Source: a virus. From it: a stretch of 64,000 nt of DNA. Positions 32 through 36,869 of the stretch are shown here, one piece after another. The notes below the pieces were generated by a model, which did not search any database, was not told the DNA's origin, and saw only the letters and a program-made list of their open reading frames with translations. The translations under genes and the position numbers were made by a program. Location: positions 1 to 64,000 of the IMG/VR virus record IMGVR_UViG_3300019458_000027; one strand, written 5' to 3'. Numbering within the stretch: position 1 is the first letter of the stretch; every line of letters begins with the position of its first letter.

Positions 32-135
32 TTTTTTCCCCCCCCCCCCCCCATAAAAGAGACATACCTGATTGTTTTAGCAATCTCATCTATTAGCTGG
101 TGCATCCCCGAATCGTTTTCTGTAAGTCTTTCCAT
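19..135 (-). CDS. Small ORF interrupted by the G15 tract, function unknown
   Basis: A 38-residue frame starts at an ATG preceded by GGGGGAT and begins MERLTENDSGMHQLIDEIAK, which looks like a real small protein. It then runs through the homopolymer as a glycine run and stops at 19-21. With 13 or 16 G residues it would instead continue in frame into the MSDLTDNRTA frame that leaves the window. The gene is plausible; its C-terminus is uncertain because of the tract. Confidence 0.4.
   Translation of the reverse strand: MERLTENDSGMHQLIDEIAKTIRYVSFMGGGGGKKCRI
38..52. repeat. C15 homopolymer (G15 in the coding sense)
   Basis: Fifteen consecutive C residues follow seven T residues on the plus strand. 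In the minus-strand sense this is G15-A7. No other homopolymer of this length was noticed in the window. It lies inside the small frame 19-135, so its length sets the reading frame. It could be a hypermutable tract or an assembly or basecalling artefact. Confidence 0.9.
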
Positions 136-149
136 GCTATCCCCCGTCT

Positions 150-284
150 TTATCTCGTTGGGAATACCAAAAGGAACGCTGTAACCCACCCAAGAATCTG
201 TACTATCTTGTTCGGTTTAGTCAACCAACTCAATGCAATGTTGAATGACACTCCTGCCAAAATCACCCAATCAACGAATAGCAT
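150..284 (-). CDS. Small membrane protein (44 aa)
   Basis: ATG at 284 is preceded by AGGAG at five bases spacing and overlaps the end of the upstream gene (271-474). The product starts MLFVDWVILAGVSFNIALSW and ends with a second hydrophobic stretch, WVTAFLLVFPT. This fits one or two membrane spans with a short basic link. The family is not recognised. Ribosome-binding site, overlap and hydrophobic pattern support a real gene. Confidence 0.6.
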   Translation of the reverse strand: MLFVDWVILAGVSFNIALSWLTKPNKIVQILGWVTAFLLVFPTR

Positions 285-474
285 GGTGTCTCCTATCTTT
301 TATATAGCCACCTTGAATGAGAAGATCGGCGGTTCTCCCGTAGTGTCCTTGAAGCTTCCAAGCCAACCCCGTATCCACTAAATGCTGGAATAGCTCCGCA
401 ACCCCCGCTTCATCCAACTCCCCCGATTCGTACGCTATGATCTGCCCAACTCGATCAAAAGGTTTCTTTTTCAT
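271..474 (-). CDS. Small conserved phage protein (DUF7417-like)
   Basis: This 67-residue protein contains LFQHLVDTGLAWKLQGHYGR followed by a residue pattern ending LIQGGYI. That is the signature of a widespread small phage protein of unknown function, usually read as a short helical protein. The start follows AGGAG and lies just downstream of a strong promoter (487-516), so it is probably well expressed. The family match is from memory of the motif; the role is unknown. Confidence 0.75.
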   Translation of the reverse strand: MKKKPFDRVGQIIAYESGELDEAGVAELFQHLVDTGLAWKLQGHYGRTADLLIQGGYIKDRRHHAIR

Positions 475-486
475 CGGTTTACTCCT

Positions 487-516
487 TTATAAGTGATCGT
501 CTCTCCGATCTGTCAA
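487..516 (-). promoter_or_regulatory. Sigma-70-type promoter
   Basis: On the minus strand TTGACA (516-511) is separated by 18 bases from TTATAA (492-487). It lies directly upstream of the gene 271-474. It is one of four similar promoters in the first 6 kb. Confidence 0.75.
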
Positions 517-583
517 GCCACTCGCTAACCGTCGGCTTTCACGAATCGCACTAGGGAGCGATACCCTTATTGCTTAGGGCGTT

Positions 584-616
584 CACCGGCTAGTCCGCTA
601 TTTCGACTAGCCGGTG
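584..616 (-). terminator. Perfect 12-bp inverted repeat after the DUF932 gene
   Basis: CACCGGCTAGTC (584-595) pairs perfectly with GACTAGCCGGTG (605-616) around a 9-base loop. It sits 11 bases past the stop of the DUF932 gene. It has no U tract on either strand, so it may be an mRNA 3'-end stabiliser or a factor-dependent terminator rather than a classic intrinsic terminator. Confidence 0.55.
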
Positions 617-627
617 GCCCTCCCTGC

Positions 628-1422
628 TTACCGAACCGAAACCAACTCCGAGAAAGCTTCCCCAACCTTGTAAACCTGATTCAAGGTGGAAAGCTGACCC
701 TTTTCCTCCAAGGAACGGGAAAGAACGTCGGTGGTTGAAGCCATCAACCGCCAAAAGTCCCGCCCCTCGTCCTCCTTACGAGTAGGATGGGCAAACAACT
801 CTCCAGCTTGCTCCCCAACCTTCCTCGTTAAAACTTTCTTCTCCACCAGCTTTTTCAGAAACTCCTGTCCCTTCACCGTCGTGCAAGGAAGGGAGATTAG
901 CTCCTTCGCCACCATCAACTGCCCCTCCAAGGCATTGTGAACCTTGGTAACTAGGGGTATCTCGCTCATGAACTTAGCAACTCCCGATTCGATATGTCTC
1001 TCGGAAATGCTAATCAAAGCTTCCCCGAAGTGAAGGAAGAAGGTGTTTTGGCAGATCACCCGAATCGGGGAAACGATCAAGCCAATGCTCCACCCTCCAT
1101 CCAGGGAATTGCGAAGGTTAACATACGTTTGAATCGGGGAATCCCCATCCAATTCGTAAACCTTTGGCAACTTGATGTTGAACACCACCCTAGAGAAGTT
1201 AGCTCTAGTGTAGACATTCTCCACCGTTCCCTCCGGAAGAAACTCTTGAACCCTAGCCAACACGGTGGAATGCGCTATCGGGGCATAACCAGGAGAAACT
1301 ACCCCGAAGATACGGTTCCCGTCCGTAACAGCCCGATATCCTGGAACCGTCTGCCCGTTCCACTGCATATCGTCCAAACGAACGTCCTTGATTGCCAAAA
1401 CCTGTTCCAAATCGGTTTTCAT
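628..1422 (-). CDS. DUF932-family phage protein
   Basis: The 264-residue product has the DUF932 layout. PGYRAVTDGNRIFGVVSPGY lies near residue 30, NLRNSLDGGWSIGLIVSPIR near residue 105, and a conserved RVICQN segment follows. DUF932 proteins are common in phages and plasmids; their biochemical role is not established. The start has a good AGGAGGG site. The gene has its own strong promoter (1449-1478) and a hairpin behind it, so it is probably a separate early transcription unit. Confidence 0.85.
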   Translation of the reverse strand: MKTDLEQVLAIKDVRLDDMQWNGQTVPGYRAVTDGNRIFGVVSPGYAPIAHSTVLARVQEFLPEGTVENVYTRANFSRVVFNIKLPKVYELDGDSPIQTYVNLRNSLDGGWSIGLIVSPIRVICQNTFFLHFGEALISISERHIESGVAKFMSEIPLVTKVHNALEGQLMVAKELISLPCTTVKGQEFLKKLVEKKVLTRKVGEQAGELFAHPTRKEDEGRDFWRLMASTTDVLSRSLEEKGQLSTLNQVYKVGEAFSELVSVR

Positions 1423-4055: not shown

Positions 4056-4071
4056 GTTTCCTCCAAGTTAA

Positions 4072-4145
4072 TAGGCGGGGCGGGGGTCGAACCCGCAACC
4101 GTCGCCTTATAAAGACGCTGCTCTAACCCGTTGAGCTACCCGCCC
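4072..4145 (-). tRNA. tRNA-Ile(UAU)
   Basis: The 74-base cloverleaf on the minus strand has acceptor GGGCGGG/CCCGCCT, D stem GCTC/GAGC, T arm GCGGG-TTCGACC-CCCGC and anticodon loop TTTATAA. The anticodon is TAT, reading AUA. The outermost anticodon-stem pair is G-A and the first acceptor pair is G-T. The 3' CCA is not encoded. It sits between the metalloprotease gene and the gene 4151-5068. Confidence 0.85.
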
Positions 4146-4150
4146 AAGAA

Positions 4151-5068
4151 TCATGCTTCCTCTACCAGTCCAGCCCAATATTCCTCCACAGGCATGTTGA
4201 ACGTCCAAGCCACCGCCCCCCTAGCTGTTCTGATGGTGTCTGGAACCCTCAGACAGTAGAAAGCACCTGTCGTAGCGCACCGAACCTTCACAATGGTAAA
4301 CACTTCTATATCAAAGGTGCTTCTTTTCACATGCTGATCAGATGGAACGACTGTTCCCTCGTCTCGTCTCAAACAGAATCGAAACAGAGTGTAATCTTTC
4401 CATTGATTCATCACTACAGCGTCAACGTCTTTCAGGATTCGTTCGTATCCATATTCCTCTAAGTAGATTCGTCTCCGCTCTTGGTTTGGCTCCCTCAGTA
4501 TCTCTTGTGGTGTCAGCGTGTTCTTTTGGAGCTTTCGGTACTTGAACCATGGGATATGAACCCCTCTAACGAAATTGATAGTGTGGGGCTTTCCGCTATG
4601 TCTGCCAAAATGAACACACGTCCCATGAACCTCTCCTTCCTCGTTGTACGGGAGAATGTCCTTTGGTGCTCCCCTCCTATACCACGTTCTTTCGGTGTTG
4701 CCGGGGCATGGAAATCTGTAAACCTTCACGCCATTGGCATTGAACAAGGTTTGGTGTGATTTGCTCCCCCTTCCTACCCCTACGAATCTTCCGGTCCCCT
4801 GATCTTCTCGATCTTCCCCCCGCCCTCCGCTCTCCATAGTTGGATAGAGCGTAATGGAAGCCAGTCGGTTTTTCGACCAGAAACCGTATTGCAAAACCAA
4901 TTCGTTCTCTCGATTGAAATAGCTCACAATTCGGTGGATGGGCATATAACCACCAGCGTTGTAAAGAGTTTTCCCCTCTTGAACCTTCGCAGAGACAATC
5001 CCAAGCTTCCTTCTTTTTACTTGGCTAATGTCGTTCTCGGTTGTGTCAAACACCTTTCGGGTTCTCAT
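4151..5068 (-). CDS. DUF6745-like protein
   Basis: The 305-residue product has no membrane span. Its C-terminal third (residues 200-300) ends with CLRVPDTIRTARGAVAWTF then EEYWAGL, which I recall as characteristic of DUF6745 proteins of unknown function. The start follows GGAGGG behind the terminator at 5081-5115. It is adjacent to another conserved protein of unknown function (5120-5425). The family call rests on motif memory only. Confidence 0.6.
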   Translation of the reverse strand: MRTRKVFDTTENDISQVKRRKLGIVSAKVQEGKTLYNAGGYMPIHRIVSYFNRENELVLQYGFWSKNRLASITLYPTMESGGRGEDREDQGTGRFVGVGRGSKSHQTLFNANGVKVYRFPCPGNTERTWYRRGAPKDILPYNEEGEVHGTCVHFGRHSGKPHTINFVRGVHIPWFKYRKLQKNTLTPQEILREPNQERRRIYLEEYGYERILKDVDAVVMNQWKDYTLFRFCLRRDEGTVVPSDQHVKRSTFDIEVFTIVKVRCATTGAFYCLRVPDTIRTARGAVAWTFNMPVEEYWAGLVEEA

Positions 5069-5080
5069 CTTCTGCCCTCC

Positions 5081-5115
5081 AAAAAGGAGGGGTGGGGCAG
5101 ATTCGCCCCACCCCT
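5081..5115 (-). terminator. Intrinsic terminator
   Basis: An 11-bp perfect stem, AGGGGTGGGGC with GCCCCACCCCT around AGATTC (plus-strand reading), is followed on the minus strand by a T5 run (5085-5081). It terminates after the gene 5120-5425, yet the ribosome-binding site of 4151-5068 follows immediately, so some read-through is likely. Confidence 0.85.
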
Positions 5116-5119
5116 GCCA

Positions 5120-5425
5120 TTAGTCTTTCACCCTCTGAGAACGATCACCCTCCCACTGGCGCTGCCGACGAAGCATCCAGAAACCCGATTCAAACTTCTC
5201 GGTTCGGTGTTCCTCATGCACCACCTTCACTTCCTCACCACCATCTTGTACGGGGAAGTAGAGATTGGTTCCCGTAGCGAAAACGGGAGCACCAACCAAT
5301 TCATGCTTGTGTCCTGTCGTCTCCCCGTACGCCAAAATCTGAGACTTCACCCTTTTTGCTTCTTTCGGGATACTCTGCACCTTGATGAACAGCAGATCAC
5401 CCTGCCTTTTGTGCTGATTCTCCAT
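5120..5425 (-). CDS. Conserved hypothetical protein with TGHxH and HEEH motifs
   Basis: The 101-residue protein contains ILAYGETTGHKHELV (residues 30-44) and VVHEEHRTEKFESGFW. The histidine-rich motifs could bind metal. This arrangement is familiar from uncharacterised proteins of phages and bacteria, but I know of no assigned function. The start has GGAGGG. Confidence 0.65.
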   Translation of the reverse strand: MENQHKRQGDLLFIKVQSIPKEAKRVKSQILAYGETTGHKHELVGAPVFATGTNLYFPVQDGGEEVKVVHEEHRTEKFESGFWMLRRQRQWEGDRSQRVKD

Positions 5426-5451
5426 TTTTCACCCTCCAGTAAAGGAAAAGG

Positions 5452-5652
5452 TTAAACAACCTGAGCTTGCAGTTGCTCCACCCGACCACGAAGCCAACCG
5501 AGGTAAGGAGAGTTAGCCAACTCTGGTCGTGCCTCACCCTGATCTAAAGCTTTCTTCGCCACGATTACAGCCGAGGCGAAATTCCTCGCTTCAACTAAGG
5601 AAGCGATCTCGTCTGTGAACTCGTACCACGGAATCCGCTGATCTTTCTGCAT
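5452..5652 (-). CDS. Hypothetical small helical protein (66 aa)
   Basis: The start at 5652 (MQKDQRIPWYEFTDEIASLV) follows GGAGGG; the upstream part of the frame overlaps the leader. The product looks like a small helical-hairpin protein, with alanine-rich EARNFASAVIVAKKALDQGE. It is the first gene behind the strong promoter 5745-5774, with a leader of roughly 80 bases. Function unknown. Confidence 0.65.
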   Translation of the reverse strand: MQKDQRIPWYEFTDEIASLVEARNFASAVIVAKKALDQGEARPELANSPYLGWLRGRVEQLQAQVV

Positions 5653-18290: not shown

Positions 18291-20573
18291 TTACCTCGGA
18301 GTCTGTGTCCTTCCTCTAGAAATTCTCTCTCTATTCAATTCGGCTCTGGTTCGGGCTTGAATATCCAATACGGCCTCTTGGACTTGCCTTCTGAGGTCTT
18401 CTACACTAAATCCAAGCTCCACCGTAACACGGTTTTCCAACTGGGTTTGTAATCTCTGGATGATTTGTTCCTCTGGAGCAGTAACCCCACCAAGCTCCAA
18501 CTGAGTTTCTCTTCGAACATTAGCAAGAGCTTCCTTAGTTTGCTTGTCTAAATCTCGTGGAATGAAGAACTGCCCCAATCCTCGATCCCTAAGAGAGGGA
18601 TCGTTACGAAAATCCTCGGAAGCAGCTATGAAGGCGGCCTTAAATCTAGGATTGGTCAGAGCTTCTTGCACAATTTCAGCATTTTGCTGAACAAACTTTT
18701 CTACACCGCTTCTTCGAAGGTCAGCAATAGCTCGATCTACGGCTCTTTCCTCAGAAAGGCGTTGCTCTCTGGTTTTACCGAGAGCTTTTGTAAACTCGTC
18801 CAAATCGATTTGGTTAATCGATTTTCTTAGTTCGATGATCTTGATAGCGGCATCGCTCTCGGCCTTAACCCTAAGACTTGTTCTTTCAATCTCGGTAAGA
18901 CCCTCGTTGGCCAAGATTTCGGCTCTCTGGTTGGCTAATTCGGCTCGGATAAGGTCTAGTTCCTCTAAGAATCGGGCCCTATCTAGCTCCGATCTCCTGA
19001 TATTAAGAAGCTGAGCGTTACCTAAAGCAGACCTAAGTTGCTCATCGGCTAGGGCCCTCTCTACCGTTAATAAACTCCTTCCAGCATCTATTCGAGCTTT
19101 CTGCTCGGCTACATTCTGAGCAAGAACCGATTGAATGGCTTCTCTAGCAAGAATAGTTCTAAGTCTCCTCTGAGATTCCAAGTCTTGGGTCGAAGCAGCT
19201 AGCTTATCGGCCGTATCCTTAATCTGTTGTTCTCTGGCCGCAGCAAATCTATCAAGGGTGACCTTGGCAAGTTTTTTCTCAGTTTCCTCTGAGAGATCAG
19301 CAAATTTCTGCTCTAATCTGATTCTCTCTTCTAGAGAAGAAATAACTTTATCAATGGCAACCTTTTCTCTCTCTAGAGAAGTGGTTCGTGTTTCCCCTCC
19401 AGGGGTTCTTCTAGCTTCCTCTATTTGTTTTGCCAAATCCTCGGACCTCTTGGCAAAGATATCCAATTGTCTGCTACTTTCTCTAAATCCCGCTACAGTC
19501 TCACCTGCTAGAAGACGCTTTGCGATAAGAGCACGATTGGAGGCCCCAACCTCCTGCTCAATCTTTCTCAAGCTCCTTTCAGAAGCTTGCTCTATAGCGA
19601 TACTAACGGCGGTAATGGCACCAGCTAGCACCAATAAACCTCCACCGGCGAGGGTAGCAGCCCTAAGAGAAATCGACAGTCTAGACAAAGACGGAATAAG
19701 ACTTAGAATAGTGCCACCAAGTGCTCGAACGTTTATAAATAGAAGTCCAAATCCCCTTCCTAATGGCCCAAGAATCAACCCTAAAGCTGTAAGTCCAGCC
19801 AATAGCGATCCCGAAGCCACAGCTGCGGTCAAGATGGGGGTAGGGATAGAGTTTATGGCTCTCAGAAAGGCCGTTACCAGAGGTAAAGTTTGATCTCCTA
19901 ATACCTGACTAACATTTTGAAATCGGTTAGTTAGGATAGCTAACTGACCAGCGGCCGTTTTCCCGTCTTTCTCGGCAAATCCTCCAAATCTTCTACTGAG
20001 TTCTGCAATTAATTCGCCGTTTTTCTGTAGTTCCCTAGCTTGACCAGAGCTTAGTCCTGTAATACGAGACAAAAGAACTACCGTTCCAGCTTGTGCTCTC
20101 GCTAGGGCCAGCGTTACCGTGGACAGTTCCCTTCCTGTGGCAGCGGCGATATCCTGGGCCAACACCAATAGTTGTTGGGCCCTTGCTGCTGATTGAGTAA
20201 AATTAATCAACTGGCTAAGGGCCTGTAGGGATTGCGTAGATTGGAATTTTGTTAATTCAGACTGTTTTTCGGCTAGAGCCTCAAAATCCTTTACTAGAGA
20301 GCTACCAGAAAGACCGAGAAGATCAAGTTGATTTCGAAGTCGAGTTACGACCTTTTCGTTTTCTATAGCTTGTTTTGTAAACTCGGTTAACCCAGCAGCA
20401 ATGGCTACCGATCCCGCAATCTGCAAAAAGTTTTTAAAAGAAAAAGACAGCTTCTCGGTTTGAGTTTGAGCACCTTTAATCTGACTGACCATTCCAGATA
20501 GTCTGTTGCGCAAATCCTCAAAACCTTGGGGATCGAGCTTTGCTAAGAGTTGCAGGATTAGACTACTAGCCAT
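18291..20573 (-). CDS. Tape measure protein (760 aa)
   Basis: Residues 30-150 have the N-terminal tape-measure pattern, with KQAIENEKVVTRLRNQLDLL and SQLINFTQSAARAQQLLVLA. Hydrophobic segments follow at about residues 240-330 (GLTALGLILGPLGRGFGLLF and LAGGGLLVLAGAITAVSIAI). The rest is long coiled coil. It sets tail length and is likely released on DNA injection. Its start overlaps the end of the frameshifted chaperone gene (TAATG), the standard order in long-tailed phages. Confidence 0.85.
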   Translation of the reverse strand: MASSLILQLLAKLDPQGFEDLRNRLSGMVSQIKGAQTQTEKLSFSFKNFLQIAGSVAIAAGLTEFTKQAIENEKVVTRLRNQLDLLGLSGSSLVKDFEALAEKQSELTKFQSTQSLQALSQLINFTQSAARAQQLLVLAQDIAAATGRELSTVTLALARAQAGTVVLLSRITGLSSGQARELQKNGELIAELSRRFGGFAEKDGKTAAGQLAILTNRFQNVSQVLGDQTLPLVTAFLRAINSIPTPILTAAVASGSLLAGLTALGLILGPLGRGFGLLFINVRALGGTILSLIPSLSRLSISLRAATLAGGGLLVLAGAITAVSIAIEQASERSLRKIEQEVGASNRALIAKRLLAGETVAGFRESSRQLDIFAKRSEDLAKQIEEARRTPGGETRTTSLEREKVAIDKVISSLEERIRLEQKFADLSEETEKKLAKVTLDRFAAAREQQIKDTADKLAASTQDLESQRRLRTILAREAIQSVLAQNVAEQKARIDAGRSLLTVERALADEQLRSALGNAQLLNIRRSELDRARFLEELDLIRAELANQRAEILANEGLTEIERTSLRVKAESDAAIKIIELRKSINQIDLDEFTKALGKTREQRLSEERAVDRAIADLRRSGVEKFVQQNAEIVQEALTNPRFKAAFIAASEDFRNDPSLRDRGLGQFFIPRDLDKQTKEALANVRRETQLELGGVTAPEEQIIQRLQTQLENRVTVELGFSVEDLRRQVQEAVLDIQARTRAELNRERISRGRTQTPR

Positions 20574-20772
20574 TACCTATTCACGACCTTTACTGTATAC
20601 TTGTCTCGTTTGTCTTGTAAAGACTTAGATTCCAAGTCGATAACATAGGCCACCGCCTCAGCAATAATGGCGTATTGCTCCCACGTTAAACCTTCAATCG
20701 ACCCAGACTTAAATAAGGACAATCCTGCGGAGCGAGACACAGAAAGTTGGGACAAGAACTGTGCGCTCCTTA
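20573..20772 (-). CDS. Tail assembly chaperone, -1 frame extension (T-like part)
   Basis: No good independent start exists for this frame. After a -1 slip at 20776-20782 translation continues as LVRSAQFLSQLSVSRSAG to the stop at 20573, adding 67 residues. The product is a second, longer chaperone (about 253 residues) of the GT type. The extension ends against the tape measure start, as in lambda-like systems. Production by frameshifting is inferred from sequence. Confidence 0.75.
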
Positions 20773-21333
20773 CGAGTTTTTTCTTTCGTCCGCAGAAAGG
20801 CCGATTTTGGTCATATAAAGATCAAACAGATCGTTCACCGTCTCATCGGGAAGAACAGCAATTTCTTCTAGATTCTTGAAAAACTTGGTTTTGCCGTCCT
20901 TCTGCTTCAATGCAAAATAAACGGTTAAAATCTTCTGCTCGATAATGGACATGAGAAGCTGAATGTCCAAGTCGTAGTTCATCTTCCTTGTTTCCAACTG
21001 AGCTTCGGCGATCCCCGCCTTGATCAGTTGAATCTCCCTATAAGTAATGGGAGTTAAATACCCTTGAATTTTGTCATTTTCCAGCTTACCTAGTTCATCC
21101 TCGGCATTCTTGAGGACGGTAGAATAATCGTCTGGTTTGCTGGAATCTTCAAGGGCTTTACGAAGATTGGCTACTTGTTCCTTAGCAGCTTCCACCAGAG
21201 GCCGATACTTATAAACATCAACCTCCACTTTATCAGTGAAAAGCTTCGCTAGGGTTTTGGAAGCTTCCCCATCCTTCTCTATAGCGTCAGCAACACCCTG
21301 CTTTTCCTCTTTTGTCATTTCTTTATTGTCCAC
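20770..21333 (-). CDS. Tail assembly chaperone (G-like)
   Basis: GTG at 21333 (VDNKEMTKEEKQGVADAIEK) follows GGAGGG; the longer frame starts before that site. The 187-residue helical acidic protein lies between tail tube and tape measure. Its 3' end has the slippery heptamer two codons before the stop. Such chaperones coat the tape measure during tube assembly. No sequence family is recognised, but position and frameshift make the role clear. Confidence 0.75.
   Translation of the reverse strand: MDNKEMTKEEKQGVADAIEKDGEASKTLAKLFTDKVEVDVYKYRPLVEAAKEQVANLRKALEDSSKPDDYSTVLKNAEDELGKLENDKIQGYLTPITYREIQLIKAGIAEAQLETRKMNYDLDIQLLMSIIEQKILTVYFALKQKDGKTKFFKNLEEIAVLPDETVNDLFDLYMTKIGLSADERKNS
20776..20782 (-). 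promoter_or_regulatory. -1 ribosomal frameshift site A-AAA-AAC
   Basis: Codons AGA AAA AAC TCG TAA contain A_AAA_AAC in the correct zero-frame phase. The -1 frame continues without a stop into the 20573-20755 frame. No strong stimulatory stem was identified downstream; AAGGAG lies four bases past the heptamer. Confidence 0.8.
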
Positions 21334-21496: not shown

Positions 21497-22252
21497 TTAC
21501 GGAAGGAAGATTGTAACAACTTCCCAAATGTCGGTCGCTAAGGGTTCAGAAGTAACCTCAAACTCCGTAGCGGACAGAGTGTAACCTGTCGTAACAGCAT
21601 CCCCATTCTTTCTGACCTGGATGGCACGTGTGCCAAATCCAAAGTCTTGAGGAAGGGTAACGGCCGATTCATCCAACGTGATCTTGTATGGACCAGGGTT
21701 GGCAGGAAAGTTCTTATCAACTCTAGAGTTTCCGTTGACAAGAGACTGTTCGTACACTGATGGATCCGGCGCATTCGCCAAAATCCTGGTGTACAGAAGC
21801 CCATGCTCCTTAATCCTGATAACGTTAGTACCAGAACCATCCACCGTAATCCTAGATTCCTCTTTAACGGGTTCAGCCGAACCCTGCCCCTTGGTGCGAA
21901 CATCTCGGCAGAAGATCGACTCGAAAATATCCCCGTTGCTATCCTTAATGTTAAGGACAACCTCCAAAATCTGGAGATTGGATGGGTCGTTAATCACCAC
22001 ACCCGTAGGATCGAGGTCGTTCAGAGCAGCATCCACCAGCTTTGAGTCCGTGTCGAAATAATCGAAACGAACGTCAACACCGTCGAACGAAACGAGAACC
22101 GCTGCAGCTTCCAGGTTATCGAACTCGTTAATCGTTCTTTCGGTAAAGCGGGGAGTGTAGTCAAAACTCTGAGCCAACGGAACTCGATAAGCTCCGTGAG
22201 ACTTGCTAACCAATTCAATCTTGGTAGCGACTCCTCTTACAAATTCAGGCAT
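21497..22252 (-). CDS. Major tail tube protein (251 aa)
   Basis: Strong AGGAGGTG site, beta-rich sequence, position after the tail terminator gene and a large terminator behind it all fit the abundant tube protein. Residues 1-130 resemble a tube domain (RTINEFDNLEAAAVLVSF then DYFDTDSKLVDAAL). The C-terminal 60 residues (RKNGDAVTTGYTLSATEFEV) look like an added surface beta domain. No sheath gene is next to it, supporting a non-contractile tail. Confidence 0.75.
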   Translation of the reverse strand: MPEFVRGVATKIELVSKSHGAYRVPLAQSFDYTPRFTERTINEFDNLEAAAVLVSFDGVDVRFDYFDTDSKLVDAALNDLDPTGVVINDPSNLQILEVVLNIKDSNGDIFESIFCRDVRTKGQGSAEPVKEESRITVDGSGTNVIRIKEHGLLYTRILANAPDPSVYEQSLVNGNSRVDKNFPANPGPYKITLDESAVTLPQDFGFGTRAIQVRKNGDAVTTGYTLSATEFEVTSEPLATDIWEVVTIFLP

Positions 22253-27827: not shown

Positions 27828-29345
27828 TTATACCTCCACCCATTGAAATGTTACAGCCACCGTTCTGTTATTGGCATCAGGACTTCCAGTTATTAATATA
27901 TCGTTCCCTGGTGTTAACTCAAGACCAAATTTAAAGTCAAGGGAGAGGCTACTGGCGTCTTTTCCTACTGAATAGGTTGCAACTCTAGTACCATTTGCCG
28001 AAATAGTTGGGGCAGAATATAAAGTCATAACTGAAGCACCATTACCCCCCAAGCGGGAAGAAATCGGGGTAACCGCCGTTCCCACCGATGTTATAGTTGG
28101 ATTTTTATACATTCTAATCGTAGCTTGTCCACCCTTAGTTAGCATATCCAGTATTGATATTCCGAGAAACAAATTTTTACCACTTCCTGATGGATTTCTC
28201 AACAGAATGACTTTGTTTTCTGACCCGGCGGTGGCTAGGCTTAATTCTACAGATCCAAAAAAGGCTTTGTCTTCTCCGCACAAAGTTACTAAAAGATCGG
28301 AGATTACCGCCCTAACTAATTCTGCATCAGAATTTTCTTCTATTATATCATCTATACGATGGGACGATGGTTTGGTATGACGAGCTTTCAGAACTACCTG
28401 TAGTCTGAAAGTAGTTTGGGCAACAGAACCGTTTGTATAATAAATTCTAAAATACCGAGCTTCTGGGGAGAAAGTAAAGAACTTTCCATTATTTGCCGGA
28501 ATAGTGTAGGTGTCATCATCATCCCAGTTTGTGCCATCAATGGAATACTGAATTTTGAATCCATCTGTCGCCGAAGCTACATTTGAAAATATAAATACTG
28601 ATATAGTTCCATATTTAGTTGCGTCTTCGGCTGTGCCTGTGAAAGTCCTGCCGATTCCCAATGGGGTAGTGGTAGAATTTGCCGTGGATATAACATTATC
28701 CAAGTCGGCTTTAATTCCAGATAGGGTAGTCTCAGAAGCCCTCGTCGATAATGCTATATCTAGGTTGTCTGTTTTAGCTTTAATTAGGGCTAGTGTAGTT
28801 TGAGTTGCAAAGTCTTTGGAATTGAGGGAACTTAACGTAGACTCGGACGCTCTTGTACTTAAAGCCGCATCAAGATTATCAGTTTTCGCTTTTATCAGAG
28901 CTAGAGTAGCTTGTGTTGCAACGGTTGAAAGTAGAACATCTATATTATCCGTCTTAGCTTTAATAAGTGCAAGAGTGGCTTCCGAAGCTCTAGTCGAGGA
29001 TAGAACATTGAGTTGGTCTCTAACTGATTGTACCTTAGATTCCAAGTCATCAGTGTTGACCTCTAAAGTATCCGTGTTGTCAATTAACGATTGGAGTTTA
29101 GTCTCAACCGTGTCCAAGGAGTCCCGAACTTGCGCTAAAGTAGCTTCGGAGGCGTTTCCTGATATGATGGAGTCTAACTTCGTCTTTACATCATCAAGGT
29201 TATTTTTTACGGAAAGTAGGTTTCCATCTTCTTTAGATGGGTTTATGATATTGCCCTGCGTATCTGCTACCTGTTGATTTGGGTCAGCAATCGGCTCTGT
29301 TGGGATTACCGGATTTCCACTTCCGTCAACGATTATTGTCGGCAT
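27828..29345 (-). CDS. Coiled-coil fibre-like protein 1 near the capsid gene (505 aa)
   Basis: Residues 45-225 are repeats of LSTRASEATLxxIKAKTDNLD, giving a long coiled coil. The C-terminal 280 residues are a beta-rich globular region (ISVFIFSNVASATDGFKIQY). It shares the repeat with the two following genes. Position next to the major capsid gene suggests a head fibre or decoration. No family recognised. Confidence 0.65.
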   Translation of the reverse strand: MPTIIVDGSGNPVIPTEPIADPNQQVADTQGNIINPSKEDGNLLSVKNNLDDVKTKLDSIISGNASEATLAQVRDSLDTVETKLQSLIDNTDTLEVNTDDLESKVQSVRDQLNVLSSTRASEATLALIKAKTDNIDVLLSTVATQATLALIKAKTDNLDAALSTRASESTLSSLNSKDFATQTTLALIKAKTDNLDIALSTRASETTLSGIKADLDNVISTANSTTTPLGIGRTFTGTAEDATKYGTISVFIFSNVASATDGFKIQYSIDGTNWDDDDTYTIPANNGKFFTFSPEARYFRIYYTNGSVAQTTFRLQVVLKARHTKPSSHRIDDIIEENSDAELVRAVISDLLVTLCGEDKAFFGSVELSLATAGSENKVILLRNPSGSGKNLFLGISILDMLTKGGQATIRMYKNPTITSVGTAVTPISSRLGGNGASVMTLYSAPTISANGTRVATYSVGKDASSLSLDFKFGLELTPGNDILITGSPDANNRTVAVTFQWVEV

Positions 29346-29346
29346 T

Positions 29347-30495
29347 TTATACTCCTAGTGCGTATGCTCTGGTTTCAACCGTGGTGGCCCCGCCAGGGAT
29401 ACGGGCTTCGATTCTTATATGAGTCAATGCTCTAGTTTCCTCTATTAACATTGTATTACCAGAGTTTACCGCAACATTATTTTGTATCATTACATCAAAA
29501 TTTACTCCGTCATCTACACTACCGTAAACACTCACCCTAGCATTGTTCGCTCCGGTGTTTACTATGGCTATTTGTTTTCTTGGGTAATTTTTTGTATTTA
29601 AGTTCCCATTGATTGGTCTAGCATTTGCAAATACAGCGGTTGGGCTATAGGATTCTGTAACGTATAGTTTTTCAGAAGCCAAAACTCTACCAATCTCTCT
29701 AGTGGTATCATCCGATGGGTCGCTAGGAATTGCGGGTTGGTCAGAAGCCAAAACAACTGGAACTGATCCTACCGCCGTCTTCTGCCCTAAGCTATTAAGT
29801 TTAGAATCAATACTAGAGAGGGTAGCTTCGCTTGCTCTAGTGGACAAAAGAACATCTAGCTGATCACGAACGGACTGAATCTTGGCTTCTAGGTCATCTG
29901 TATTGACTTCAAGGGAATCTATATTATCAATAATTGATTGAAGTTTGACCTCAACGGTATCCACAAAGTCTCGAACCTGTTGAAGGGTTGCTTCGGTGGC
30001 ATAATCTTTTGCTATCAAAGAGTCCAACTTTGTCTTAACATCATCCAGATTGGTCTTTACTGATACAAGAGTGGCCTCAGACGCTCTAGTGGATAGACCG
30101 ACATCAAGGTTCTGAAATAAAGGAGTTAAATCGGCCCCAGTCTGGAGAGTCCCGCCCCATTTTTCTACGTTAACGTTCCCGCCACCTGTGGCTAAAGCTA
30201 CCTGCACTACCCCGTCGGTGTCAGTCTTAATGTAACGAAGGGTACTTGGGGTTCCGCTCTGATCAATAGCTGCTACCTTGATATTGGTAAGGTTGAAAGT
30301 GGCCGAATCGACCTCAAGCTCACTATCTACCTTGATTCGCAGAGTGCCGTCTCCCTCTTCTGAACTGGCAATGGGGGCCCATCCAATAATATTTCCGGCC
30401 CCATCAACGATGGGCAAGCACAACCCTGCTAAAGGTCTGTTGTTCTCGTCGTAAGGAAGGGGCTTTACTTTTTTATTTCTTAGGTCATTCGCCAT
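29347..30495 (-). CDS. Coiled-coil fibre-like protein 2 (382 aa)
   Basis: N-terminal residues 10-60 (KVKPLPYDENNRPLAGLCLP) are shared with 30681-31418. A coiled coil spans about residues 130-240 with LSTRASEATLVSVKTNLDDV units. A C-terminal beta domain contains NNARVSVYGSVDDGVNFDVM. It looks like a duplicated and diverged sister of its neighbours. Confidence 0.65.
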   Translation of the reverse strand: MANDLRNKKVKPLPYDENNRPLAGLCLPIVDGAGNIIGWAPIASSEEGDGTLRIKVDSELEVDSATFNLTNIKVAAIDQSGTPSTLRYIKTDTDGVVQVALATGGGNVNVEKWGGTLQTGADLTPLFQNLDVGLSTRASEATLVSVKTNLDDVKTKLDSLIAKDYATEATLQQVRDFVDTVEVKLQSIIDNIDSLEVNTDDLEAKIQSVRDQLDVLLSTRASEATLSSIDSKLNSLGQKTAVGSVPVVLASDQPAIPSDPSDDTTREIGRVLASEKLYVTESYSPTAVFANARPINGNLNTKNYPRKQIAIVNTGANNARVSVYGSVDDGVNFDVMIQNNVAVNSGNTMLIEETRALTHIRIEARIPGGATTVETRAYALGV

Positions 30496-30659
30496 TTAAT
30501 AAGCTCTCCAATCCTATGAATCTCCCAACCAATTTTCTTCCAGAAAGACAAAGTAGGCCAAGTGCTAGGGATTACCCTATTCTTTTTAATGACCAAAATA
30601 GCTTCCCCCGCACTTCCGATCATTTTTACTGTTTTTTTGGATACACTAGGAAGTCCCAC
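30480..30659 (-). CDS. Small basic protein (59 aa, GTG start)
   Basis: GTG at 30659 is preceded by AGGAG and opens a frame reading VGLPSVSKKTVKMIGSAGEA, with a tryptophan/lysine-rich end FWKKIGWEIHRIGELIKW. It overlaps the next gene by 16 bases. The ribosome-binding site and coupling support a real gene in what would otherwise be an intergenic gap. Function unknown. Confidence 0.6.
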   Translation of the reverse strand: MGLPSVSKKTVKMIGSAGEAILVIKKNRVIPSTWPTLSFWKKIGWEIHRIGELIKWRMT

Positions 30660-30680
30660 TTATGTAGACTCCTGCAAATA

Positions 30681-31418
30681 TTATAACTTACGATAGTCAA
30701 CCAAAAGCGTATCCCCAAGAATTGGGGCTACAGCTAAGGTTAGAGTAACGTTGTCAGCTTCTTCAACATAATCGAAACCAAGCCCCTCTTGAAGTCTAAC
30801 TCCGTTCTTGAAAAGATGCGTGGTCGTTGGTTTCCAAGAATTGGCCGTGGTGAAGGTTACGTTAGACCCGTTAATAGTCCCTGATGGGGTTTCTCCATCC
30901 ACGATAACATCAATCTTCGCTAGAATAGCAGCCAGAGTTGCCTCTGTAGCTCTAGTGGAAAGTAGAACATCTAGTTGGTCTCTAACCGATTGAACTTTTG
31001 CTTCTAATTCGTCGGTATTGATATCTAGGTCAGCCGTGTTGTCTATGATAGATTGTAATTTGGCCTCTACCGTATCGAGGTGATCTCTTACTTGAATTAA
31101 AGTGGCCTCGGTAGCTCTAGTGGACAAATCAACGTCAAGATGTTGAAATAGTGGAGTGAGGTTTGCCCCGCTTTGGAGAGTTCCTCCCCATTTCTCAACA
31201 TTCATATTGACGTTACTAATAACAACGTCTCCAATCTCTGTTTCAACCTTTAGTGTCGCTGTACCATCTCCGTTGTCAACGGCCGCTAATGGAAGATAGC
31301 CATCAATTACTGTGGCACTAACAATCGGAGAAAACAACACACTGGCAGGCCGAGCATTTTCGTCGTAGGGAATCGCTTTAATCTTAGCTCCCTTGTAGTC
31401 TGCCGGATCTGTAGGCAT
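30681..31418 (-). CDS. Coiled-coil fibre-like protein 3 (245 aa)
   Basis: The shortest of the trio. The N-terminal domain KIKAIPYDENARPASVLFSP is shared with protein 2. The coiled coil includes LSTRATEATLIQVRDHLDTV. The C-terminal beta domain (THLFKNGVRLQEGLGFDYVE) is shared with 24927-26219. First gene after the capsid gene and its hairpin. Confidence 0.65.
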   Translation of the reverse strand: MPTDPADYKGAKIKAIPYDENARPASVLFSPIVSATVIDGYLPLAAVDNGDGTATLKVETEIGDVVISNVNMNVEKWGGTLQSGANLTPLFQHLDVDLSTRATEATLIQVRDHLDTVEAKLQSIIDNTADLDINTDELEAKVQSVRDQLDVLLSTRATEATLAAILAKIDVIVDGETPSGTINGSNVTFTTANSWKPTTTHLFKNGVRLQEGLGFDYVEEADNVTLTLAVAPILGDTLLVDYRKL

Positions 31419-34686: not shown

Positions 34687-34992
34687 TTACATTACCTTAA
34701 TCCACGTTCTTGTTTTAGAATCATAAATGGAGGTAGCTTTGTAGTTTGTTGGTCTTGTAACCCCGCCTCCACGTGCCTTCTCTTGAAACATACCAAATTT
34801 CTTGGGGTCGTCAACCTTAAACTCCATATAGCCCCCATCCTCCATATGCACCCTGCCAGTATGGGTTCCAGTCCGCTCCATTCTAGTACCACGAACGTCG
34901 GTCATTTGCTTCTTGGTCATTGTTTTGTTGTGCCGATATTGACCAGGTTTTGCCGACATGGATTGTGGTCTGTGAACTTCCCGCCGTGCCAT
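34687..34992 (-). CDS. Basic hypothetical protein (101 aa)
   Basis: Arginine/lysine- and glycine-rich, starting MARREVHRPQSMSAKPGQYR, with RVHMEDGGYMEFKVDDPKKF. Coupled to the MuF-type gene by TAATG. Likely a small virion or assembly protein; family unknown. Confidence 0.6.
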   Translation of the reverse strand: MARREVHRPQSMSAKPGQYRHNKTMTKKQMTDVRGTRMERTGTHTGRVHMEDGGYMEFKVDDPKKFGMFQEKARGGGVTRPTNYKATSIYDSKTRTWIKVM

Positions 34993-36869
34993 TACTTTTT
35001 CTCCCTGAAATTAAGATGATATTTTACATTACCAATCTGGGAATAATTGTCTTTCGCTTCGGGATCAACCTCAAGATTGTCTACACGACCCACTTGTTTG
35101 CTACCATCCTTGAATCTAAGTTCTGCGTTACCGTCATCCAGTCGGATTACAGCATCTTGATCTAAGACTCTGAAAGCTATGTTTTCCAACCTGTCGGCAT
35201 TTTCAGGACTAACACTTACAATAAAGCTAGTTTCTTCTTTCCCGCCCCAAACACCCTTTTGGCGAACTACATCATCAGAATATAATTTCAATGATTGTTC
35301 CAGGTTGGCGGTTTTCCTAGCATTCTCTTCGGGAGTTAGATTTCCTCTCTCAGCCGACACTATAATCTTAGTTCCCGATCCCAAATGTTCTTTTACTCCA
35401 CCAGATTCGGAGAACCGACCCGATTCATCCCTAGGATGAAGTTCCTCAATCCAACCTTTGGTCATTGACACCAATTTCTCGTACAATCCACTAGTAGAAG
35501 GGAAGTAAACGGTAATAAGTTTTTCTTCAACCTTGGTTACTGGTTTAGTCTCATGGGTGTCAGGGTCGTAAATTCCAACTATCCATTCAGCTTTCACATG
35601 CGGGAGGGAGAAAGCCGAAGGTTCTCTCCCTGCTACGCTCAGAGCCAAATCCTCCTCAGCATTGGACTTGAAATAATCTTCGGGAATCTTGGCTACAACC
35701 GTAACTCCCTTTTCCCCTTCTGGAACGACCTCAGAATTGGTAGCATAAAAGGAAGCCCATACCTTGCTGGTAGTTACGAACACCTTATTGGCTCTATCTC
35801 CCGTATAAAAACTATCATCAAAATTTCTATACTTTCCTGAAACAATTCCCTCTTTTAAAATGGAGGCCGATCTTTCTAGGGTGGTGGAATGATAAACTTC
35901 TACCTCACTGAATTTCCCCGTCTCGTCCCTTGGGTGCTGCGCTTCATCCCAAACTTTCATCATCTTTTCGGATTCATCATCTGGATGAGGGGCAGGTTCG
36001 AAAAGCTCACCACATCGGCAATTGGTAAGGCATTCGTTGGTTTGATACTCTGTAGCAAAGTGATCTAAAGTCATCCAAACGCCTTCGTTACCTTCGCACC
36101 CATCACAAACCTTGTCGTCCTGGACCGTATGCCAATATCCACCCTCGTACTCGACTTCTCCCTCTTCGGTACTGGCGGCCTTGACCGATTCAGAAAACCC
36201 TAGGGAGAAAGCTCCCAATGCCGCCATAGCGTACATATCCAAACGGCTGAGCTTTTTGTCCATAACACCTTCAAGGGCTTCACTGTACGCTACTTCGTCG
36301 GGATATTCGCCGTCGATCACTCCGGCGAACTCAGCATAGAGATCGTTGTTAACAAAATTGTCGAATTTCTCTTGATGTTCCTCTATAAGAGATTCGATTT
36401 CTTCCTTATCTTCGGGGGAAAGCTCATCGTCGATCGGTTGCCCCGTCAATCCCTGTCCCCTCTCCTTACCAATTTGATAAAGACGGTCAAAAGAATTGGA
36501 GGCCGCTAAACTAAAAGCTAGAGCTAGCTCTGCTAAATGTTTCTGTACAATGCTTTTCTTCTCTGGTCGGTCGTCTGATTCAAATTCGGCCTTGGTAAAC
36601 TTGCGAACTCCCTCTTCTGAGAGGATCGTTGCTTTAACTTTGTTCCATTCATCACGGAGCTTGTTATCAAGACCCTGCAAAGCACGATCAATCTTTCTCT
36701 TTGCGTCTAGGGGAACGATTCGTCTCTTGAGGGCCTTTTGGATACCACCACTAAACTCGATGGCCTCTACCAACGGATATTGAGTAGTAGAGGTTATGTA
36801 GGTTACCGAGTCGTTAAACTCTTCCCTAAGTTTTTCAATCGGCGTTGGCTCATCAAGATAAATGCGCAT
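34992..36869 (-). CDS. MuF-type minor head protein with extra effector-like domains (625 aa)
   Basis: Residues 1-300 match the MuF/SPP1 gp7 head-morphogenesis layout, ending in a cysteine cluster (VCDGCEGNEGVW and ECLTNCRCGELF). After a first HPRDETGKF linker (about residue 312) comes a domain EVYHSTTLERSASILKEGIV ... ASFYATNSE that resembles ADP-ribosyltransferase-type folds. A second HPRDESGRF linker (about 480) precedes a C-terminal domain with NLTPEENARKTANLEQSLKL. MuF proteins enter the capsid, so the added domains may be delivered to the host. The enzymatic call is tentative. Confidence 0.7.
   Translation of the reverse strand: MRIYLDEPTPIEKLREEFNDSVTYITSTTQYPLVEAIEFSGGIQKALKRRIVPLDAKRKIDRALQGLDNKLRDEWNKVKATILSEEGVRKFTKAEFESDDRPEKKSIVQKHLAELALAFSLAASNSFDRLYQIGKERGQGLTGQPIDDELSPEDKEEIESLIEEHQEKFDNFVNNDLYAEFAGVIDGEYPDEVAYSEALEGVMDKKLSRLDMYAMAALGAFSLGFSESVKAASTEEGEVEYEGGYWHTVQDDKVCDGCEGNEGVWMTLDHFATEYQTNECLTNCRCGELFEPAPHPDDESEKMMKVWDEAQHPRDETGKFSEVEVYHSTTLERSASILKEGIVSGKYRNFDDSFYTGDRANKVFVTTSKVWASFYATNSEVVPEGEKGVTVVAKIPEDYFKSNAEEDLALSVAGREPSAFSLPHVKAEWIVGIYDPDTHETKPVTKVEEKLITVYFPSTSGLYEKLVSMTKGWIEELHPRDESGRFSESGGVKEHLGSGTKIIVSAERGNLTPEENARKTANLEQSLKLYSDDVVRQKGVWGGKEETSFIVSVSPENADRLENIAFRVLDQDAVIRLDDGNAELRFKDGSKQVGRVDNLEVDPEAKDNYSQIGNVKYHLNFREKK

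Follow-up and report, generated by a model that had tools for sequence, protein, structure and literature searches.

Predicted programmed −1 frameshifting in the tail assembly chaperone gene of an uncultured phage group

Results

Two overlapping frames between the tail genes

We analyzed a 64,000-nucleotide window (positions 1–64,000) of the IMG/VR virus record IMGVR_UViG_3300019458_000027, which comprises 104,918 bases. The locus lies on the minus strand, where two overlapping frames separate a likely tail tube gene from a tape measure gene. The features are as follows.

21497..22252, minus strand: likely tail tube (major tail) protein of 251 aa, encoded immediately upstream of the chaperone gene; named from position and conservation only
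20770..21333, minus strand: short product of the zero frame, a predicted tail assembly chaperone of 187 aa that runs from GTG to TAA
20776..20782, minus strand: slippery heptamer A AAA AAC, read in the zero frame as part of AGA AAA AAC
20573..20776, minus strand: T-like domain encoded by the −1 frame as an extension, with TAA following its 67 codons
20729..20769, minus strand: predicted stimulatory hairpin, starting 6 nt after the heptamer and assessed by synonymous recoding
20753..20755, minus strand: TTG, alternative start candidate in the −1 frame
18291..20573, minus strand: tape measure protein of 760 aa, matching phrog_1272 (tail length tape measure protein) at E=5e-6 and six relatives by tblastn

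The chaperone gene starts at GTG 21333, with GGAGGG seven bases 5' of it, and stops at TAA 20772-20770. Its final codons are GAC GAA AGA AAA AAC TCG TAA, and the heptamer is therefore in the correct phase for tandem −1 slippage, as the earlier note had read it, with TCG as the single sense codon before the stop. In the −1 frame, no stop intervenes between TGA 20824-20822 and TAA 20575-20573, the latter overlapping the tape measure ATG at 20573 (TAATG). Joining the −1 extension after zero-frame residue 186 yields a predicted fusion of 253 aa. Thus, the near absence of a zero-frame tail, the 67-codon run to the tape measure start and the 253-residue length of the predicted long product, all proposed previously, are borne out. 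This sequence anatomy, its conservation and the folding potential of the hairpin are directly seen.

Homologues and the chaperone assignment

Searches with the chaperone alone and with the tape measure protein alone found no relatives, and tblastn of the chaperone and tube proteins against 50,697 phage records gave no match, as did a search of the genome contigs collection with the tube protein. Using the tube protein, a conserved connector-region protein and the capsid protein as queries, followed by searches with the records found, we recovered diverged chaperone homologues on nine other IMG/VR contigs: L002, L003/G005, L004/G006, L011/G004, L020/G001, L025/G002, L021/G003, L043/G020 and L048. 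Together with the window they represent a group of uncultured phages that includes contigs of approximately 84–105 kb. When the first eight chaperone sequences are aligned, the others share 24–32% identity with the window protein. The candidate tube protein has no Pfam or convincing PHROG match; it shows 42–57% identity in the relatives and is encoded upstream of the chaperone every time.

The gene order is tube, chaperone and tape measure, with the tube identified by its position; in lambda, G/GT is likewise flanked by the genes for the tail tube and the tape measure. The chaperone homologues had no match in Pfam or PHROG (scans of eight homologues) or in a PDB sequence search. The AlphaFold2 model of the 187-aa chaperone (pLDDT 88) matched none of the solved structures. 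In the viral library searched with Foldseek, the named entries near the top were tail assembly chaperones of the Arthrobacter phages Faja and Molivia (probability 0.96–1.00, E of approximately 0.01–0.02, TM 0.40–0.46, 12–16% identity), a fold likeness that is suggestive only. Gene order and predicted fold together support the assignment as a chaperone; the fold by itself would support it only weakly.

Two further observations concern the relatives. In L002, we found a 323-aa SGYSG-repeat protein and a tube protein carrying a short insertion of the SGYSG kind (97..1068 and 4769..5581, respectively). In L043/G020, a minus-strand frame that lies beside the tail genes, upstream of that for the tube, resembles a free-standing HNH-type endonuclease with CxxC motifs.

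Conservation of the slippery heptamer

The 57 non-overlapping predicted genes of the window contain 78 in-frame X XXY YYZ heptamers. Of these, the heptamer at 20782 alone is followed by a −1 frame that continues at least 90 nt past the zero-frame stop (it reaches 197 nt), and this heptamer is also the sole A AAA AAC among the 78. A canonical heptamer lies in phase at the equivalent place in all ten sequences, shortly before the zero-frame stop as in frameshifting of the lambda G/GT type. Eight sequences carry A AAA AAC (the window, G001, G002, G003, G005, G006, G020 and L048), while G004 has A AAA AAT and L002 has G GGA AAC. In L002, all three X bases are altered together, as tandem tRNA slippage would require. 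The zero-frame tail after the heptamer measures zero or one codon in nine sequences and seven codons in G003.

A predicted hairpin 3' of the heptamer

The earlier sequence-only reading overlooked a hairpin located 6 nt after the heptamer. Its outer stem pairs GGAGCG (20769-20764) with CGCTCC (20734-20729), and its inner stem pairs CACAG (20763-20759) with CTGTG (20742-20738); a bulge of three nucleotides, TCT, lies in the 3' strand. A stem occurs at the matching site in each of the first nine sequences, 5–8 nt from the heptamer. The bulged form is present in the window, G002, G003, G004 and G020; a continuous stem of 10–12 bp is present in L002, G005 and G006; and G001 keeps mainly the outer stem.

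Because the hairpin stretch also codes in the −1 frame, we used synonymous recoding as the control, with 2000 recodings per phage drawn from its own codon usage. The real hairpin was more stable than the recodings at p<0.05 in eight of the nine phages (p=0.0005, 0.0025, 0.0075, 0.030, 0.038, 0.004, 0.0005 and 0.007), with the window itself marginal (p=0.063). Fisher's combination gave p=6e-12 for the nine phages and 2e-8 for a reduced set, values that treat related phages as independent; the Stouffer combination likewise ignores their shared ancestry. In the held-out tenth phage, L048, which was found afterwards, the outer stem is still the lowest-energy fold of a 46-nt segment, but the hairpin is weak (p=0.29). 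Thus, a stable structure selected beyond coding at this spacing was found across the nine phages, and L048 did not pass.

The outer stem is nearly invariant, and stem pairs with both sides changed number one per subgroup, which is not above shuffles. RNAalifold and pair counts on the homologues gave no significant covariation, and covariation is therefore not claimed; Rfam had no match at the frameshift site. Given the recoding p values on the one hand, and the result for L048 and the nonsignificant covariation signal on the other, a stimulatory effect of the hairpin on frameshifting is likely, although short of proven.

Origin of the −1 extension

The −1 extension is homologous in all ten sequences (blastp of the window against L002, E=6e-10; alignment A5), and the −1 frame is thus coding and conserved across phages. 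Modeled alone with AlphaFold2, it reached a low-confidence pLDDT of 60. Directly after the slip, the −1 frame encodes a motif, L-x-x-S-x-x-F, that is common to all ten (its first residue is Y in G004) and that precedes any ATG, GTG or TTG of this frame in every case. Conserved −1 residues located 5' of any start are expected only when ribosomes enter from upstream.

This motif bears on whether the −1 frame might instead be a separate 60-aa gene, translated by re-initiation at TTG 20755 after the stop with GGAG 20769-20766 as its Shine-Dalgarno sequence. The earlier note had held that this frame lacks a good start. That view overlooked the window's TTG, which has GGAG ten bases 5' of it, and G004 offers an ATG at the same place with GGAG before it. 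However, the relatives do not conserve the TTG: eight of the ten sequences have no start at this position, and in these the first −1 candidate comes 12, 20 or 29 codons beyond the heptamer and lacks such a GGAG site. Moreover, the GGAG is itself the 5' arm of the hairpin, a canonical heptamer is retained in all ten, and the L-x-x-S-x-x-F motif lies 5' of the start, which makes a separate gene most unlikely. It is very doubtful, too, that the GGAG arm is doubly used in the window and G004, as hairpin stem and as ribosome-binding site for a free T-like domain (from TTG 20755 in the window), such that one locus would give three products.

A change of frame by the RNA polymerase, slipping on the run of As, would also connect the two frames, and nine of the ten homologues do contain six As. 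Six As are short for polymerase slippage, however, and L002 (GGGGAAAC) has no long A run, and yet its heptamer keeps the X XXY YYZ phase and leads into the same −1 extension. Because L002 preserves this tandem-slip logic and extension without the run, and with the hairpin at ribosomal spacing likewise favoring the ribosome, we prefer ribosomal slippage and consider transcriptional slippage hardly plausible. Finally, a sequencing or assembly error in the error-prone six-A homopolymer, or decay of what was truly one long frame, is effectively refuted by the homologues: nine independent contigs, each taken from other samples, show the two frames in the same relation, and one of them has G GGA AAC.

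Other genes of the window and its relatives

Three successive proteins encoded between the connector and capsid genes (27828..31418, minus strand) share repeats such as QVRDSLDTVETKLQSLIDN and are probably paralogous coiled-coil structural proteins. In the 625-aa protein encoded at 34992..36869 (minus strand), residues 197–286 give a weak Mu F-like match that falls short of the Pfam cut-off, and residues 502–614, near the C-terminus, match an S-adenosylmethionine lyase domain (PF23780, E=2e-11); the protein is possibly a head-associated anti-restriction enzyme. In G004, the capsid gene (L011 2335-4212) is split by approximately 900 nt containing a 232-aa ORF that resembles a homing endonuclease, and L011 3115-3274 matches the group I intron family RF00028 with 49.6 bits, where the gathering score is 50 (E=5e-11). 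The sole tRNA found in the window is tRNA-Ile with anticodon TAT (4071..4146, minus strand).

Discussion

Collectively, the ten heptamers in phase, the homologous extensions with their L-x-x-S-x-x-F motif, the hairpin, the gene order and the fold near-neighbors point to a tail assembly chaperone of the lambda G/GT type that is expressed by programmed −1 frameshifting; the earlier note had proposed such a chaperone frameshift. We place the probability of this sequence-based prediction at approximately 0.95.

From these features we infer the slippage itself and its efficiency, the role of the hairpin and the functions of the proteins. Most ribosomes would end at TAA 20770 and release the 187-aa protein. 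In a minority, the tRNAs on AAA and AAC would shift back by one base at A AAA AAC, aided by the hairpin, which might pause the ribosome, and these ribosomes would read 67 further codons to give the 253-aa protein. If the parallel with lambda holds, the common N-terminal part may coat the tape measure protein, while the rare C-terminal part may recruit tail tube subunits, and the ratio of short to long product would be important for tail assembly because of these two roles.

The practical use is in annotation, since gene callers without frameshift modeling would miss the predicted 253-aa product. The ten diverged copies also show what selection keeps, namely the heptamer logic, the 6-nt spacer and a hairpin with varying pairing registers.

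Both the G/GT frameshift of lambda and its distribution across long-tailed phages are well documented (PMC5009743), and the frameshift-type tail chaperone system is thus already known; the protein family and the signal reported here are new members. A classic recoding system thereby gains an uncultured phage group whose chaperones are unrecognised by any family library. As in lambda gpG/gpGT, the slip lies near the end of the short gene and the long product continues in the −1 frame as far as the tape measure gene (PMC5009743). In contrast to lambda, A AAA AAC replaces the lambda site, the zero-frame tail is at most one codon in nine of ten sequences, a conserved hairpin is predicted, and the window family has no detected sequence similarity to any known chaperone family. 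SPP1 gp17.5/gp17.5*, a functional analogue of G/GT, similarly has a putative −1 frameshift at a homopolymer heptamer, UUUUUUC (PMC6316719); however, its site is U-rich, and no homology to the window chaperone was detected. Among the Arthrobacter phages that gave the best named fold matches, Faja and Molivia, the Molivia chaperone entries are 204 and 358 aa long.

The signal also resembles that of Escherichia coli dnaX, which combines a poly-A heptamer with a downstream hairpin stimulator (PMC3711429). The dnaX heptamer is, however, A AAA AAG, which is much shiftier in E. coli, and it is accompanied by an upstream SD-like element, whereas no clear upstream SD was noted at the window site. The earlier note had called A-AAA-AAC the most slippery sequence known, which is untrue for the ribosomes of a bacterial host; it is for mammalian ribosomes that the review places A_AAA_AAC among the shiftiest sites (PMC5009743). 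Frameshift efficiencies of 6–7% have been measured for a tail chaperone cluster (PMC3711429). In the phages described here, a modest slip site together with a hairpin would fit a low, fixed product ratio.
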